64,000 bases of DNA from Sulfurihydrogenibium azorense Az-Fu1 (GTDB lineage Bacteria; Aquificota; Aquificia; Aquificales; Hydrogenothermaceae). The notes under the pieces were generated by a model, which was given only the letters and a program-made list of their open reading frames with translations, was not told the DNA's origin and made no database searches. The DNA lies in NCBI RefSeq assembly GCF_000021545.1, contig NC_012438.1, forward strand, positions 310,001-374,000. The letters are read 5' to 3'. Shown here one piece after another: positions 2,273-58,661 of the stretch (position 1 is the stretch's first letter; each line of letters starts with the position of its first letter). Both the position numbers and the translations under genes were made by a program.

Positions 2273-3546
2273 ATATAGTAAATTCTTTAAAAGATAGAGT
2301 ACTTAAAAGTGAGTTTAATAAGAGTGTTTTAGTATTAGCTGGTGGGACAGCCGTAGCTCAAGCTGTTCCAATTTTAATCTCCCCTATTTTAACAAGATTA
2401 TATACTCCTGAGGATTTTGGAGCTTTTGCTATATTTATGTCTATAACGTCAATTATTTCAGTAATTGCTTGTGGTAAATATGAACTTGCTATAATGCTTC
2501 CAGAGAAAGATGAAGATGCTATAAATGTTGCGGCAGTTGCTTTTTTATTCAATGTTTTTGTAAGTGGTTTGTTTTTTCTTTTTATTTTATTTTTTGGAGA
2601 TTGGCTTTTAGATGTTTTAAATGCTAAAAATCTTGGATGGCTAATTTATCTTGCTCCTTTATCTGTATTTTTGTTGGGGACATTTAGTATATTGAATTAC
2701 ACAAATAACAGGTTTAAACTTTATAAAGATATATCTAAAGCAAATATATATAAATCTTTAGCCGGTGCTGTTGTTCAGATAGGTATGGGATTTTTAAAAT
2801 ATAAAACAACAGGATTAGTATTTGGGTATATAGCTTCTCAATTATTTTCTAATTTTAAGTTATTTAAGAATATTTCTAAGTATTTCAGTTCTATAAATTA
2901 TCTATATATAAAAACCATGTTTCATAAGTATAAAAACTTTCCTATATATTATGTTCCGGGTGCTTTAATAGACACTATATCTTCAAATATACATTTTTTC
3001 TTTATTTCTTTCTATTTTGGAATAAAAGTAACAGGATTATATTTTTTTGCATATAAAATAGTAAGTGCTCCTTTTAGTTTAATAGCTTCAGCTATTTCCC
3101 AGGTCTTTTTTAGAGAATTTTCTTTCCTATTCCAGAAAGATTTAGTATCAGCAAGAAATTTTTTAAAAAAAACGGCATTGAATTTATTAATTTTATCCAT
3201 ATCAGTAAATTTTGCTTTAATTGTGCTGATATATGTTTTCTGGAGTTTCATTTTTGGGTTGAAATGGGAAGATTCTAAATCTATAGCTATAATATTATTA
3301 ATCTCTTATTTAATAAGATTTATTGTTTCTCCTATTAGCGTCGCTCTTGTTTCTTCAAATAAATTAAATTATCTACTTCAATGGCAAATTTTATATTTTG
3401 CAGTCGAAGTTATATTTTTTGCAGTTATATATATTTTTCATATTAGTTTTCAAGATTTTTTGTTATATTTAATATTTGTAGAATGGTTCATATATTCCGT
3501 ATATCTAATATTTATATTTAAATCTGTTGAAATAAAAAAGAGGTAA
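2269..3546 (+). CDS. wzx: Wzx-type oligosaccharide flippase
   Basis: Polytopic membrane protein of about 425 residues in the MATE/MOP polysaccharide-exporter family, which flips undecaprenyl-linked repeat units across the inner membrane. The N-terminus is typical: VLVLAGGTAVAQAVPILISP followed by LTRLYTPEDFGAFAIFMS and GKYELAIMLP. About a dozen hydrophobic segments follow through to the C-terminus. I chose the ATG at 2269, which overlaps the previous stop as ATGA; an in-frame ATG lies at 2260. The gene is very T-rich even for this window, as is common for transferred wzx genes. The exported sugar cannot be read from the sequence. Confidence 0.87.
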   Translation: MNIVNSLKDRVLKSEFNKSVLVLAGGTAVAQAVPILISPILTRLYTPEDFGAFAIFMSITSIISVIACGKYELAIMLPEKDEDAINVAAVAFLFNVFVSGLFFLFILFFGDWLLDVLNAKNLGWLIYLAPLSVFLLGTFSILNYTNNRFKLYKDISKANIYKSLAGAVVQIGMGFLKYKTTGLVFGYIASQLFSNFKLFKNISKYFSSINYLYIKTMFHKYKNFPIYYVPGALIDTISSNIHFFFISFYFGIKVTGLYFFAYKIVSAPFSLIASAISQVFFREFSFLFQKDLVSARNFLKKTALNLLILSISVNFALIVLIYVFWSFIFGLKWEDSKSIAIILLISYLIRFIVSPISVALVSSNKLNYLLQWQILYFAVEVIFFAVIYIFHISFQDFLLYLIFVEWFIYSVYLIFIFKSVEIKKR

Positions 3547-3551
3547 ATAAT

Positions 3552-5486
3552 ATGTGCGGTATCGTTGGTTTGGTTTGTAATGAAAATATAAACTCAACTT
3601 TAATAAGAGATATGGCAAATACTATAAAACATCGTGGACCTGATGATGAAGGATTTATTTTTCTATCGGAGGAGAGCATTGTTTTGGCAGGAGGGGATGA
3701 CACATCCGATAAAGTATGGAATTCTAACTTCCTGTATTCACCGAAAAGTCATATTAATTCCCTTGAAGGTAAAAAATTTAAGGTTGCTTTAGGACATAGA
3801 AGATTATCTATATTAGATCTTTCTCCGGCCGGACATCAACCTATGTGTGATGAAGCTCAAAAAGTTTGGATTGTTTTTAATGGAGAGATATATAACTATT
3901 TAGAGTTGAGAGAAGAGTTAAAACAAAAAGGTTATACTTTTATTACAAATACAGATACTGAAGTTCTATTAAAGTCTTATATAGAATGGGGGTTTGATTG
4001 TGTAAGCAAGTTCAACGGTATGTGGGCTTTTGCAATACTTGATTTAAGAAAAAATATCTTATTTTTATCAAGAGATAGATTTGGAGTAAAGCCGTTATAC
4101 TACTACAAAGATGATAATTACTTTGCTTTTGCTTCTGAGATAAAAGCTTTACTTAGACTTCCTTTTATAAAAAAAGAAGTTAATTACGAAGCTGTTTTTG
4201 ACTACATTGCCTTGGGTCTGGAAGAACAGGGAGAAGAGAGTTTTTTCAAAGGAATAAGAGAATTAAAACCTTCTTACAATATAGTTTTAAATTTGAATAA
4301 CTTTGAATTTAAACTCCATAAGTATTATGAGCTTTTATACTATGATAAATTTGAAAAATATAATCCGGAGAAAGAGAAAAAGTATATATCCGAGATTAGA
4401 GAACTTATATTTGAGGCGATTAGATTAAGACTTAGGTCTGATGCAAGTGTTGGATCATGTTTAAGTGGTGGGCTTGACAGCTCAACCATTGTTTGCGTGA
4501 TGAATGAAATAATTAAAAATCAACATTTATCTCAAGTAGGAGACTATATAAAATGTTTTACAGCTTCTTATAAAGATGACAAGGTAGACGAAAGTAATTG
4601 GGCAAAGATAGTTGTAGAAAGTACTAAATCTCAATGGATAAGAACTTTTCCTACAGAAAAGGAACTAATAGAAGATTTAGAAGACCTTATATACACTCAA
4701 GACATTCCTTTCGGATCTACAAGTATATATGCACAGTATAGGGTAATGAAAGCTGCATATGAAAGTGGTGTAAAAGTTCTATTGGATGGTCAAGGAGGAG
4801 ATGAGTTATTTACAGGTTATACAGGATATTTTCCTACCTACTACAGAGAACTTATAAAGAATTTTGATTTTACTGATTTAATAAATGAAATAAAAAATGT
4901 AAATAACTCTCCTATAGATATTAAATCAATAATAAAAATGGCTATAAAATCAGAGTTAGGAAAGTTCTTAACTTTTCCTAAGATAAGAGACTTTTTAATT
5001 AAAAGAATATCTTATCCAATATCTTTACTTAATCCAGAATTTTATAAAGAATTTTCATACAGGATTAAAGATAGACAAGAGAAAATTCCCAATAGTCTTA
5101 ATCAACAACTTCATCAGTTGATAACTGGCTTTAGCTTAAAAAGATTACTAAGGTATGAAGATAGAAATTCAATGCGATTCAGTATAGAATCAAGAACACC
5201 TTTTGCTGACGATATAAACTTGATAGAATACTGTTTTGAAATACCTTCGGTTTATAAAATTCATAACGGATTTTCAAAGTATGTTTTAAGGCAAGCCATG
5301 GACGGAGTTTTACCGGAACAAATTAGGAAGAGAGTAGATAAGGTAGGTTTTGCAACACCAGAAGAAAAATGGCTAAGGATTAATAAAGGTTTTGTAGAAG
5401 ATATCATGTTTGAATCTCATATATTGAAAGATATTGCAAATATACAAAAACTAAAAAATGATTGTATAAGTTTCAATACACAGTGA
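3552..5486 (+). CDS. asnB: Asparagine synthase (glutamine-hydrolysing), 3' end cut off by an insertion sequence
   Basis: Class II glutamine amidotransferase plus ATP-dependent synthetase; in polysaccharide loci such enzymes often amidate uronic acids. Cys2 of MCGIVG is the glutaminase nucleophile; IKHRGPDDEG, FNGEIYN and SRDRFGVKPLYY belong to the glutaminase half. The synthetase half has the PP-loop SCLSGGLDSST and DGQGGDELFTGY. The protein ends abruptly (DCISFNTQ) where homologues continue for some tens of residues to a Trp-rich end. Its TGA stop (5484-5486) is supplied by the first bases of the insertion sequence. Activity is therefore doubtful. Amidation of a sugar uronate here is inference. 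Confidence 0.85.
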   Translation: MCGIVGLVCNENINSTLIRDMANTIKHRGPDDEGFIFLSEESIVLAGGDDTSDKVWNSNFLYSPKSHINSLEGKKFKVALGHRRLSILDLSPAGHQPMCDEAQKVWIVFNGEIYNYLELREELKQKGYTFITNTDTEVLLKSYIEWGFDCVSKFNGMWAFAILDLRKNILFLSRDRFGVKPLYYYKDDNYFAFASEIKALLRLPFIKKEVNYEAVFDYIALGLEEQGEESFFKGIRELKPSYNIVLNLNNFEFKLHKYYELLYYDKFEKYNPEKEKKYISEIRELIFEAIRLRLRSDASVGSCLSGGLDSSTIVCVMNEIIKNQHLSQVGDYIKCFTASYKDDKVDESNWAKIVVESTKSQWIRTFPTEKELIEDLEDLIYTQDIPFGSTSIYAQYRVMKAAYESGVKVLLDGQGGDELFTGYTGYFPTYYRELIKNFDFTDLINEIKNVNNSPIDIKSIIKMAIKSELGKFLTFPKIRDFLIKRISYPISLLNPEFYKEFSYRIKDRQEKIPNSLNQQLHQLITGFSLKRLLRYEDRNSMRFSIESRTPFADDINLIEYCFEIPSVYKIHNGFSKYVLRQAMDGVLPEQIRKRVDKVGFATPEEKWLRINKGFVEDIMFESHILKDIANIQKLKNDCISFNTQ

Positions 5487-31953: not shown

Positions 31954-32026
31954 AGAATACCCCCCTAAAGATTTTTAAATATAATACTACATCTCAACAG
32001 TAAGGGTATCTATGTTTTTTATCAGA

Positions 32027-54000: not shown

Positions 54001-54346
54001 AAGAGAAAAAGGTAAGAAAAACGAAGATTTAGCTGTAGAGTTTTTAAAGAGTAAAGGTTATAACATTTTACAGAGGAACTTTTACACAAGGTCTGGTGAG
54101 ATAGATATAGTTGCTCTAAAAGATGATACAGTTGTATTTGTTGAAGTCAGAAGTTTATCTAAATGTTATTTCGGACTGCCACAGGAAAGTATAAATAAAA
54201 CAAAGATAAAAAAGATTGTAAAAGCAGCTCAGCAGTTTTTATACAAATACAATCTAACTGGTAAAAACGTTAGGTTTGACGTTGTTGCAATTTTTCAAGA
54301 TAGTATAACTCACATAGAAAACGCTTTTACCCTTGATTACTTATAA
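53993..54346 (+). CDS. yraN: UPF0102 (YraN) family endonuclease-fold protein
   Basis: 117 residues. KKNEDLAVEFLKSKGYNILQ, RSGEIDIVALKDDTVVFVEV and the lysine/arginine after it form the PD-(D/E)XK core of the YraN family; the usual VEVK reads VEVR. Start TTG at 53993, overlapping the previous stop by eight bases, with AAAGG upstream. Function of the family is still unclear. It converges on the c-di-GMP gene with a 20-base overlap. Confidence 0.88.
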   Translation: MNKREKGKKNEDLAVEFLKSKGYNILQRNFYTRSGEIDIVALKDDTVVFVEVRSLSKCYFGLPQESINKTKIKKIVKAAQQFLYKYNLTGKNVRFDVVAIFQDSITHIENAFTLDYL

Positions 54347-57300
54347 GTTTTTCAGCTTCTTCTTCAGGCATAGGTTTACCAAGAAGATAACCTTGAAGAT
54401 AATCACAACCTAAATCCCTTAGTATCTTTAACTGTTCTTCTGTCTCTACCCCTTCTGCCAGTGTTTTAACTCCTAACTCTTTTGCAAGGGTTATAATTGC
54501 TTTTACTATAGACCTCGTCTTTAAATCGTCTACAATCTCTTTTGTAAAGGATATATCTATCTTTATCTCATCTATAGGAAGATCTTTTATATACTTTAAC
54601 GAGGAGTACTCTATTCCAAAATCATCAACAGCTATTTTTAAGGCAGTCTCTTTTTTAATTTTACTGAGTAATTCTTTTGTGTCTTCTGGATTTATCATCA
54701 AAACTCTTTCTGTAATTTCCATTATTAGATTAAGGTTAGGGTTTATAGAAGAAAGGTAGTTTATATAATCTTTGTTTTTAAAACTGTTAGCTGAAGCATT
54801 AAAAGATATAGGTACATGCCACTTTCTTGCTTTCTGAGTTATCTCTTGTAAAAGCCATTTTTCATAATCCATTAGGTATTTACTGTTTTCAAGAACATCT
54901 ATAAAAATATTTGGAGTGTATATCTTTCCATCTTTGTCCTTTATTCTAACTAACCCTTCAAACCCTTCTAACTTTAAAGTCTTGGTATTAAAAAATGGTT
55001 GATAGTAGAGGGTAAATAAATTCTCGTTTAATGCTCTTTCTATAAGCTGCTTTGCAAAAGAAATATTTTTAATTTTGTCATCTATCTCTTTGTTAAATAT
55101 TACTACAACGTTTTCTCCTTGTAATTTTGAATGAGCTAAAGCTGTAGAAGCATTTTCATACAGTAATTCTAAACTATCTCCGTCTCTTGGTGCTAAAGCT
55201 ATACCAGCATTAAAAGATACGTTAATTATTTTATCATCATAAAGTATTGGCTCTGAGAAAATGTGATTTAATTTATTAATAAATTGGTTTAGCTGGATAG
55301 CCTCACTTTCTTTGTTTATCTCTATAAAAATTCCAAATTCATCAGCTGCAACCCTTGCTATTAACCCATCAGGAAAAGAAAGGTTAAGTCTACTTGCTAT
55401 TTGTTTTAACACAAAATTTCCAACTTCAAATCCGTAAGTTTTATTTAAAAAAGTAAAATCTTTAATGTCTATTAAAGCTAAAATTCCATCGAGTTTTAAA
55501 CTTTTTAACCTCTCTGATACTATTAAGAAAAATCCTTTTAGGTTCATTAAGTTCGTTAAAGTATCGTGGTTTTCAAGTTTTGATATTTGATGCTGTAATT
55601 CAACCTCTTTTGTAATGTCTGTACCTATTTCTAAATACCTTTTTATATTTGGTGGTATTTCCACTGGATATATTGTTGTTTTTAAATAGAAAAGCTCTCC
55701 GTTCTTTTTCTTATTTACAAATATAGCTGAAAAAGTTTTTCCAGATAGTATTGTTTTGTACAACTCTTCATAAAACTCTCGTGGTTGTATTTCTGATTTG
55801 AAAATTCTTTGATTTTTACCTATAAGCTCTTCTCTTGAGTAGCCAGTTAATTTACATACTGTATCGTTAACATAAGTTATGTTAAAGTTTTCGTCTGTAA
55901 CCAACACCCAAGAATCAGAGTTTTCAATAGCCTTTGATATTATTATATTTTTTCTGATTTCATTTAGTCTTTTTACTACAAACTCTAAATCTTGTTTTAA
56001 CTCTTGTAAAACAGATACAAGTTCTTCGTCAAAAAACTCAGGCTCAGGAGAATACATATTAATTACGTATTTAACTTTTCCACTTTCATCTTTTAAAGGA
56101 ATAGCAGCTGTAGACAAAAAGTTCCTTTCCTTTGTGTACTCTCTCCAAGGTATAAATCTTGGGTCTGTTTGGGTGTTTGATATTATAAAAATATTATCTG
56201 TTCTAAATGCAGTTCCAGTAGGACCTCTTCCGGTTGGCAGATCTTCTCTCCAAGATATTTTGACTTCCTCAAGGTATCCTTTATCTTCTCCGTACTTATA
56301 CAAAACTTTAAAGTATGGATTATCTTCACTTTCTTTGGTGCCAACCCAAACAAATTTAAGTCCTATTTTTTCAACTAAAGCCTTACTTACTTTTTCAAAC
56401 ATATCTTCTTCTGTTAGTGAAAGTGTAATAGCTTGGTTAACTTCTCTCAATAGATGATAAAGTCTTTCGTATTTTTTTTGTTTTGTAATATCAAAAAATA
56501 TCAAAAATCCTGAGTATTTCCCTTTGTACAGGATGGTATTACTGAAAACAGTCAAGATTAAAATTTTTCCACTTTTAGTTACAACCCTAACTTCATTGTG
56601 TGAAGTTTGAAACCTTTCTCCTTTTAATCTTTTCTCTACAATAGGAATTACTTTTTCTCTATCTTTGTCACAGATAAAGTCTAAAATAGATTTTGATAGT
56701 ATTTCCTCTTTTGAATATCCTGAAATCTTAGTTACATAATCGTTAATGTAAACAATCTTTTCTTGATAAATAACAACTCCTACATCATTTATGTTTAATA
56801 TAGCTTTTGCTATGTCGTGTTCTTCCCATCTTTTTACCAGTATGTTAAATCTAATGAAAACTTCTATTGTTCTTATAATATCTTCGTCTGTAGCTTCTTC
56901 TAAAAAATCAAAGGACAATAAAACAGGCTTTACCTTATCGTAAACAGAAGGATGGGACATAAAAAAGTGAGAAGTTTCAAGCATCGTAGAACTAATTATT
57001 TTAACACCTTCTTTATTTTCTATCTGTTCCCAAGTTTGATTATATATTACTCCTAAATCAACTTTACCCTCCTTAACAAGTTCAAAAACTTCCTGCCAAG
57101 TTTTTGTAAGAATTACCTCTACCTCTTCAAAATTATGGTTTAACAAGCCATATGCAGGAGGGTTTGATACAGCTGTTGCAATCTTTACATAACTTTTATT
57201 AAAAACTGATTCATCTCTTCCTATTACAAAGAAGGTATCTTTTTGTCCTTTAAATCTTGCTACGGGTTTATAGCCTTTTTGGTAGAGTTGTATAGCTATT

Positions 57301-57479
57301 TCAGAATTAGCATAGTAAATGTGATGTAATTTAGTATCAAGTAATTCCTTTTCTTCCTCAAAGGATTTAAAAGGTTTAAAATCTATCTTTTCATTAATTT
57401 TTTCTTCAACCTTTTTAATAAAATCTTCCCAAAATTTAAGTCCCTTTTCAGTATCATGAGGACATACAGAAAAGTTCAT
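54327..57479 (-). CDS. PhnD-like/PAS/GAF/PAS/GGDEF/EAL c-di-GMP signalling protein
   Basis: 1050 residues, no signal peptide or membrane helix. Residues 1-225 look like a PhnD-type ligand-binding domain (HHIYYANSEIAIQLYQKGYK, LGVIYNQTWEQI). PAS about 230-340, GAF about 345-505 (TGRGPTGTAFRTDNIFIISN), PAS about 510-630, GGDEF about 640-795, EAL about 805-1045. The GGDEF site reads VAADEFGIF, so cyclase activity is doubtful. EAL residues look mostly kept: FEGLVRI (EGL), MEITERV, AVDDFG, AEGVETEEQL, so a phosphodiesterase is likely. Its promoter has a C9 spacer tract. The putative ligand-binding domain is cytoplasmic, which is unusual. Confidence 0.86.
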   Translation of the reverse strand: MNFSVCPHDTEKGLKFWEDFIKKVEEKINEKIDFKPFKSFEEEKELLDTKLHHIYYANSEIAIQLYQKGYKPVARFKGQKDTFFVIGRDESVFNKSYVKIATAVSNPPAYGLLNHNFEEVEVILTKTWQEVFELVKEGKVDLGVIYNQTWEQIENKEGVKIISSTMLETSHFFMSHPSVYDKVKPVLLSFDFLEEATDEDIIRTIEVFIRFNILVKRWEEHDIAKAILNINDVGVVIYQEKIVYINDYVTKISGYSKEEILSKSILDFICDKDREKVIPIVEKRLKGERFQTSHNEVRVVTKSGKILILTVFSNTILYKGKYSGFLIFFDITKQKKYERLYHLLREVNQAITLSLTEEDMFEKVSKALVEKIGLKFVWVGTKESEDNPYFKVLYKYGEDKGYLEEVKISWREDLPTGRGPTGTAFRTDNIFIISNTQTDPRFIPWREYTKERNFLSTAAIPLKDESGKVKYVINMYSPEPEFFDEELVSVLQELKQDLEFVVKRLNEIRKNIIISKAIENSDSWVLVTDENFNITYVNDTVCKLTGYSREELIGKNQRIFKSEIQPREFYEELYKTILSGKTFSAIFVNKKKNGELFYLKTTIYPVEIPPNIKRYLEIGTDITKEVELQHQISKLENHDTLTNLMNLKGFFLIVSERLKSLKLDGILALIDIKDFTFLNKTYGFEVGNFVLKQIASRLNLSFPDGLIARVAADEFGIFIEINKESEAIQLNQFINKLNHIFSEPILYDDKIINVSFNAGIALAPRDGDSLELLYENASTALAHSKLQGENVVVIFNKEIDDKIKNISFAKQLIERALNENLFTLYYQPFFNTKTLKLEGFEGLVRIKDKDGKIYTPNIFIDVLENSKYLMDYEKWLLQEITQKARKWHVPISFNASANSFKNKDYINYLSSINPNLNLIMEITERVLMINPEDTKELLSKIKKETALKIAVDDFGIEYSSLKYIKDLPIDEIKIDISFTKEIVDDLKTRSIVKAIITLAKELGVKTLAEGVETEEQLKILRDLGCDYLQGYLLGKPMPEEEAEKLISNQG

Positions 57480-57508
57480 TTATTTTCCCCCTAAATTTTC
57501 ACAATATT

Positions 57509-57537
57509 ATTATACAAGTGGGGGGGGGTGTAATCAA
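57509..57537 (-). promoter_or_regulatory. Sigma-70 promoter with a C9 homopolymer in the spacer
   Basis: On the minus strand, TTGATT (57532-57537) and TATAAT (57509-57514) are exactly 17 bases apart, and nine of the spacer bases are an uninterrupted run of C (G run at 57520-57528 on the plus strand). A gain or loss of one C would move the spacer to 18 or 16. The -10 box ends 30 bases before the ATG of the GGDEF/EAL gene. Confidence 0.7.
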
Positions 57538-57556
57538 GTATTTTAATTTTAATAAT
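57533..57556 (+). repeat. Left 24-bp direct repeat flanking the IS982/IS5-like element
   Basis: Begins ATCAAGTATT and is identical over 24 bases to 58521-58544. Most simply a long target-site duplication. Confidence 0.9.
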
Positions 57557-57583
57557 ACGTTGAGTGAGAAATTAATGCCATAA

Positions 57584-58420
57584 TTAAACCTCACAGTACC
57601 TGAAAAAGCTATAACCTATTGCATAAGCATACAAATATGAAAGAAGCGTTATACCTTTTCTCCATCTGCTAAGAGCGTTAAATTGTTTTAACCTTGAAAA
57701 TACGCTCTCAATAATCTGCCTTTGAGCTTTATCTTCTTTTGTCTCACATACGATAACATTCTCACATCCTCTATAGCCTTTGTCTCCTATTACTTCAAAA
57801 AGGCTTATAAGTCTTTTAAACCAAATACTAGTTTTTGCTCTTAACCTAAAAGATTTAACTTCATGATAACTTGCTGGATGAAACCAAATGTCATAAACTC
57901 TTCCCTTTGTATCACAAATTATCATAACAAGCACTCCATAGTATATCTCTTCAAATTTTACTCTTTTTTTGTAGTGTTGACTGTATAGATTTCTTTTTCT
58001 TCTTACCCAAAACTTCTTTCCATTAAATCTCTTTATTCTCTGGGTTTTTGCTCTGTTTACATTAGCTACTGGAAGTATTGTACCATCTACTATAAGCCTT
58101 GGTTTTTTATTAGATACCAAAACTTCTATAATTACAGACAGTATTCTCATTTGTAGATATATTCTAAGCAGTTCGTATATTCTTTTAATTCTTGATTTTC
58201 TGAATATGTGATAAGACTTTATAGAGTCATCAATAAATTGTCTTGCTATTTTCAAAACAGGCATTCCAGTTATGTATGATAAGATGAAAACTGCTGCTAT
58301 TTCTTCATCGGTAATTTTTGGTTTTCTACCAGCATTAGATTTAGCTGTATTCTTATAAAAAGAAACTTTAAATGATTGAAAATTTTTGAGAAGTATGTTA
58401 TAAAACTTTTCCAGTTGCAT
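57584..58420 (-). CDS. DDE transposase, IS982/IS5-like
   Basis: About 278 residues. The N-terminal region GRKPKITDEEIAAVFILSYI is followed by the catalytic core: first Asp in RLIVDGTILPVANVNRAK, second in VIGDKGYRGCENVI, and Glu in QRQIIESVFSRLKQFNALSR. Short spacing between the second Asp and the Glu. I chose ATG 58420 with GGGAGGT upstream. The family is judged from motif layout: IS982 fits best, other IS5-group members are possible. Confidence 0.85.
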   Translation of the reverse strand: MQLEKFYNILLKNFQSFKVSFYKNTAKSNAGRKPKITDEEIAAVFILSYITGMPVLKIARQFIDDSIKSYHIFRKSRIKRIYELLRIYLQMRILSVIIEVLVSNKKPRLIVDGTILPVANVNRAKTQRIKRFNGKKFWVRRKRNLYSQHYKKRVKFEEIYYGVLVMIICDTKGRVYDIWFHPASYHEVKSFRLRAKTSIWFKRLISLFEVIGDKGYRGCENVIVCETKEDKAQRQIIESVFSRLKQFNALSRWRKGITLLSYLYAYAIGYSFFRYCEV

Positions 58421-58431
58421 TTTTTGACCTC

Positions 58432-58473
58432 CCAAAAGTAGTTTGGGTATATTATAACCCGAGCTACTTTTGG
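58432..58473 (-). promoter_or_regulatory. Hairpin with internal promoter at the transposase start
   Basis: Perfect 10-bp arms CCAAAAGTAG (58432-58441) and CTACTTTTGG (58464-58473), with an inner GGGT/ACCC stem. A minus-strand TATAAT lies in the loop (58451-58456). The lower arm touches the transposase ribosome site (58427-58433). Read-through RNA could fold and hide that site, while RNA started in the loop could not. Confidence 0.5.
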
Positions 58474-58520
58474 CTTTTTATTAGAAATAAAATTGAAAAA
58501 ATGAATTTCTCACTCAAGGT

Positions 58521-58544
58521 ATCAAGTATTTTAATTTTAATAAT
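58521..58544 (+). repeat. Right 24-bp direct repeat flanking the IS982/IS5-like element
   Basis: Exact copy of 57533-57556, beginning directly at the end of the element. Confidence 0.9.
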
Positions 58545-58661
58545 TTTAAGACAAACCAAGACAGGTAGTAAAAATTAAAGCCAAAATAAAAGAGAATTTA
58601 GGCTTGTTTGTTTTATGTTCTTGTTTTTGAATTGGAAATTAGGGTTTATTTTAAATAAAAT

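Follow-up and report, generated by a model that had tools for sequence, protein, structure and literature searches.

A homopolymeric C tract as a probable contingency locus upstream of a predicted c-di-GMP phosphodiesterase gene in Sulfurihydrogenibium azorense

Introduction

Could an unbroken run of nine C, lying between two promoter-like boxes in front of a GGDEF/EAL gene of the free-living thermophile Sulfurihydrogenibium azorense Az-Fu1, act as a slipping switch? Most known cases of phase variation come from host-associated bacteria and concern surface antigens. The window analyzed here is a stretch of 64,000 nucleotides of this genome (contig NC_012438.1, positions 310,001 to 374,000), for which a preliminary description had proposed that slippage of the run switches c-di-GMP output through promoter spacing. 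From sequence comparison, we read the run (C9) as probably a simple-sequence contingency tract lying in the 5′ control region of a gene for a probable c-di-GMP phosphodiesterase. The tract fits the contingency pattern: it is long, of a kind avoided elsewhere in the genome, variable in relatives and placed where one unit may matter. G-numbered handles denote genomes throughout.

Results

The control region of the GGDEF/EAL gene

On the minus strand, the control region reads TTGATT, ACA, C9, ACTTG and TATAAT, which confirms the arrangement first described, with C9 between the two boxes at a near-optimal spacing of 17 bases (Table 1). The location of the boxes relative to the gene was also confirmed; TATAAT ends 29 bases before the ATG (57479), not the 30 originally given. 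A promoter scan of the window scored the pair at 10 of 12 box matches. The same scan found 11 promoter-like matches against 6.3 expected; because such matches are common in an AT-rich window, the boxes alone are weak proof of a promoter. We also considered a hairpin in which the C run pairs with GGGGG and masks the ribosome-binding site. This candidate was rejected, as it was not significant in the window or in G006, a genome of the same genus; in the window leader, the C-run/GGGGG pairing was no better than in shuffled sequence (z 0.31).

Table 1. Features of the candidate tract and its surroundings in the window
Feature	Position	Strand	Basis or remark
GGDEF/EAL gene, 1050 aa, probable c-di-GMP phosphodiesterase	54327..57479	-	Pfam, motifs, structure match
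GGGGG, candidate ribosome-binding site, 7 bases 5′ of ATG	57487..57491	-	conserved in G006
TATAAT, candidate -10 box	57509..57514	-	promoter scan; present in G006
C9 homopolymer (G9 on + strand), proposed slipping tract	57520..57528	-	genome run counts, ortholog comparison
TTGATT, candidate -35 box	57532..57537	-	promoter scan; ACTTGATTAC kept in G006 ortholog
Perfect 24-bp direct repeat, read as target-site duplication	57533..57556 and 58521-58544	.	flanks insertion sequence
Insertion sequence copy, just upstream of C9 region	57557..58520	-	three further copies at 99-100% identity
Transposase ORF in insertion sequence	57584-58435		IS982/IS5-like match, weak, below model cut-offs

The encoded protein carries, in Pfam order, a phosphonate-binding-like N-terminus, PAS, GAF, PAS, GGDEF and EAL domains, with an EAL match of 3e-57. 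All EAL catalytic residues (E, N, E, DD, K, E, Q) are present, and the motif itself reads EGL. The GG(D/E)EF active-site motif is absent, with AADEF in its place. Because AADEF is degenerate and the EAL catalytic residues are intact, breakdown is favored over synthesis, and the protein more likely degrades c-di-GMP than makes it, as judged from these residues. What the preliminary description called c-di-GMP output is therefore probably c-di-GMP breakdown. The closest solved structure is a motility regulator, which we take to be MorA. In the tract-bearing relatives, the GGDEF motif reads ASDEF, GDDAF, GSDEF, GNDEF, GDDEF or SSDTF.

The adjoining insertion sequence has three further copies in the genome, 99-100% identical. 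Its 24-bp target duplication contains five of the six bases of TTGATT, and the insertion therefore left the promoter region whole. We also asked whether C9 belongs to the insertion sequence or to a second repeated element at 58533-58651, and rejected this because it lies outside both. The insertion sequence was likewise rejected as the source of C9; G006 has the run too, and there the upstream neighbor is a sequence resembling RNase P RNA (by eye). The insertion sequence is no part of the proposed switch. Its target duplication is unusually long, 24 bases here and about 26 and 33 at copies L003 and L004. The element at 58533-58651 is a shrunken, decayed remnant whose ends are found again in some nine fuller copies at other sites of the genome.

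Rarity of C/G runs in the genome

In the genome of 1,640,877 bp, C9 is the sole C/G run longer than six. No run of seven or eight occurs anywhere in the genome, and all other runs are exactly six: a search for CCCCCC returned 44 overlapping matches, 4 inside C9 and 40 standing alone. One of these 40, at 31960-31965 of the window, lies 13 bases before a TATAAT-like box. A first-order Markov estimate predicted about 20 runs of at least seven and 0.7 runs of at least nine per genome. Since about 20 runs of at least seven were expected and one was seen, this genome avoids long C runs, the one exception being C9, a tract that exceeds the expectation from composition. By length alone, one C9 per genome would be unremarkable. 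It is the position, the conservation and the length differences in relatives that make the run notable.

Tract length in orthologs and in a second gene type

At the place of C9, the full-length ortholog in G006 (81% identical) reads ACTTGATTAC, C8 in all, then ACTTATAATAATAT. Upstream of the orthologs in G012 (45% identical) and in G025, from another family (43% identical), we found C7, again at the same place, and C16, respectively. In each of these orthologs the C run is on the coding strand, at a distance of 33-51 bases upstream of the start. The orthologs in G027 and G011 are without any run, which we counted against the contingency reading. In a second GGDEF-EAL gene type, four species belonging to one genus carry C9, C14, C9 and C10, and G031 carries C10; here the run lies 50-57 bases before the start, always with C on the coding strand. 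Within this type, G035 and G065 share 96% identity across the 150 bases 5′ of the run, but their runs are C9 and C14. G122, from a different order, has C9 at 48 bases upstream of an EAL gene, and TATAAT follows the run at 15 bases.

Thus, at one genome per species, tract length differs between orthologs with conserved flanks. The preliminary description had named a constant run length in relatives as a refutation; the length was not constant (9, 8, 7 and 16; for the second gene 9, 14, 9 and 10), and the proposal was not refuted. The claim of phase variation by a slipping C run is well supported by comparison, from these ortholog lengths and from the concentration at GGDEF/EAL genes described below; slippage itself we infer.

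A separate arrangement was seen in G004 (L033), where the N-terminal part of the gene's relative is reversed just upstream of a truncated 766-aa frame, and a second copy elsewhere in the genome encodes 956 aa. Inversion or recombination between the copies could account for this arrangement.

Possible modes of action

The simplest mechanism for the window is that of a promoter spacer. Slipped-strand replication would change the length of C9 now and then, and each C added or lost would change the spacing between TTGATT and TATAAT, and hence transcription of the phosphodiesterase gene. As the spacing is now 17, the C9 state is predicted to be ON. Some cells would then break down c-di-GMP and others would not, so that a clone would split into attached and motile types; switching within one population and its effect on surface behavior are both predictions of this scheme. 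For a fast-slipping tract, nine units is at the low end of the range, which we counted against the contingency reading.

The comparison with relatives does not confirm the spacer mechanism. In G006, TTGATT and TATAAT are both present but 12 bases apart, compared with 17 in the window; G006 would therefore be OFF as sequenced or use other boxes. The G035 group has no clear boxes around the run, so the box arrangement is not shared by these run-bearing relatives. Of the promoter-spacer switch originally proposed, the 17-base arrangement holds in the window and its conservation does not, and we put the mechanism forward for the window species only tentatively, as somewhat short of an even chance.

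The same slipping tract could instead act in an RNA leader or at an upstream activator site, with transcription starting upstream of the run or with the run setting a regulator's distance from RNA polymerase. The 12-base box spacing in G006 fits this alternative. So does the conserved block TTGAC..TGTTAAAAAGTGTTAAATT of the four G035-type species, which stands well 5′ of the run; these species also share an inverted repeat CTTG-N5-CAAG between the run and the start codon. Because the conserved block is promoter-like, the run may sit in a leader in that group. Moreover, the G067 leader folds better than shuffled sequences (z -3.3). The window species, however, has a good TATAAT 5 bases after the run, G122 likewise has one just after its run, and the pairing in the window leader described above was no better than in shuffles. 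We consider a leader or activator site unlikely, though worth keeping in view.

Tracts inside coding frames

Homopolymers were also found within c-di-GMP genes of relatives. In G068 and G071, G9 splits a GGDEF-EAL gene into two frames, whereas the G072 ortholog reads GGATGGG at the same site and has an intact frame of 782 aa. G071 additionally contains C25 in a PAS-GGDEF gene, at a site where the paralogs read IELSKNPSITFD; the tract breaks the frame, which 24 or 27 C would leave open. A G9 run in G122 truncates a GGDEF domain, whose normal end is regained with 7 or 10 G. In G126, G9 overlaps the start codon (ATG) of a GGDEF gene and is one base out of frame, whereas 10 G would be in frame. 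Frame-breaking runs in c-di-GMP genes thus occur in three lineages, and one or two units more or fewer restore the frame. The effect of one unit on the reading frame is clear for these in-gene tracts, and in the window one unit matters only if TTGATT and TATAAT are the boxes used.

These tracts also bear on the idea that the C run is a fixed protein-binding site that does not slip, such as a CsoR/RcnR-type G/C-tract operator or a site for another regulator. Between G000 and G006, the run is conserved together with its flanks, ACTTGATTAC and ACTT, and TACA..TGTA around the run is partly symmetrical by eye, as an operator might be. But orthologs have runs of 7 to 16, near-identical flanks enclose runs of 9 and 14, and similar runs sit in the coding frames of genes of this class, where an operator would serve no purpose. 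A fixed operator is therefore improbable, and we retain the contingency tract as the preferred reading. The window species has MutL, which we counted against that reading; a MutL match was absent in G068 and G071 and present in the other nine genomes tested.

Comparison with known switches

Homopolymer switches of both kinds have precedents. In Bordetella pertussis, fim2 and fim3 have a poly-C run just upstream of the -10 box, require the activator BvgA and control fimbriae. The window resembles them in having a C run just 5′ of a candidate -10 box and differs from their BvgA dependence and fimbrial target. The poly-G contingency genes of Campylobacter are frameshift switches, mostly in surface glycan and flagellar genes, with many tracts per genome. 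The in-gene tracts of the relatives are likewise of the poly-G frameshift type, in contrast with one or two tracts per genome here.

In Neisseria meningitidis, 11 to 12 C in the opc promoter raise expression (PMC3447861), and promoter homopolymer spacing acts at porA (van der Ende 1995, as cited in PMC5084427). Both share with the window a poly-C or poly-G run between -35 and -10 boxes, which are candidates in the window; its length sets expression in those systems. They concern outer-membrane proteins of a host-adapted pathogen in which variation and expression were measured, whereas the present case concerns a c-di-GMP enzyme of a free-living thermophile, known from sequence.

Phase-variable c-di-GMP phosphodiesterase genes are known in Clostridioides difficile, where pdcB and pdcC are promoter-switched by recombinase-mediated DNA inversion (PMC9286219), unlike the homopolymer slipping proposed here at a promoter of the same type of gene. 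According to a review (PMC11868660), the phosphodiesterase gene linked to sfa in Escherichia coli varies in phase by an epigenetic switch, again a target of the same type under a mechanism other than a homopolymer. The passages of the review consulted here name no simple-sequence example for c-di-GMP. In the open-access literature, to which our search was confined, we found no report of homopolymer phase variation of c-di-GMP enzymes, or of phase variation of any kind in Aquificota. Homopolymer phase variation is thus known; c-di-GMP enzymes as a target class and Aquificota as a clade look new.

Distribution of long C/G runs in Aquificota

All C/G runs of at least nine in 136 Aquificota genomes (58 runs) were collected and their surroundings read. 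Runs were classified using simple ORF calls, BLAST, motif reading and, for selected genes, Pfam, so that gene calls are approximate. In the quality subset of genomes at least 90% complete, 12 of 40 runs lay directly upstream of or inside GGDEF/EAL genes by hand count, as did all five runs of at least ten away from contig ends (C10, C10, C14, C16 and C25). The 15 genomes searched contained 3-25 GGDEF genes each, and we estimated these genes at about 1-1.5% of the sequence, an approximate background rate. At 1.5% background, the binomial probability of 12/40 is 5e-13; counted by lineage, with related genomes taken once, the figures are 8/36 and 5e-8. Runs were not counted as support where the assembly is fragmentary or the run lies at the end of a contig (G073, G044, G120 and G093); the same holds for C9 runs in G009, G018, G021 and G095, which belong to a tRNA 3′ end (ggttcaaatC9gcaacca).

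It might be argued that C9 is a chance run, or AT-rich intergenic noise without function. The dinucleotide expectation of about 0.7 such runs per genome is compatible with chance, as are the runs of exactly eight elsewhere in the order, which are mostly random and inside genes and were rejected as members of the same class, only that of the G006 ortholog fitting. Against chance, long runs are otherwise absent from the genome, a run is present in three other orthologs, and the concentration at GGDEF/EAL genes is far above expectation. We regard a chance origin as very improbable.

These results somewhat favor a wider reading, in which slipping poly-C/G tracts in Aquificota, a free-living and largely thermophilic group, would form a dedicated bet-hedging switch for cyclic-di-GMP that evolved repeatedly at phosphodiesterase and cyclase genes, in promoter and coding positions, usually once or twice per genome. 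If this holds, a homopolymer switch has repeatedly been placed on c-di-GMP enzymes of deep-branching hot-spring and vent bacteria, and random switching between settled and moving states is selected in free-living extremophiles that have no immune system to evade. The tracts are few and short, which makes the switch reading directly testable.

The census also returned runs in other settings. In G069 (L262, minus strand), an EAL gene and a methyl-accepting chemotaxis gene (Pfam MCPsignal) have C9 between them, about 59 bases upstream of the gene at 2871-4985. In G129 (L302, minus strand, 3494-3970), C9 precedes by 47 bases a gene whose product has the N-terminal methylation motif of type IV pilins, and which adjoins another pilin-like gene. 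Finally, G027 (L150, around 4000-4008) has G9 where formyltransferase-like and acetyltransferase-like (PseH-like, by eye) frames overlap, an arrangement resembling the flagellar-glycan contingency genes of Campylobacter.
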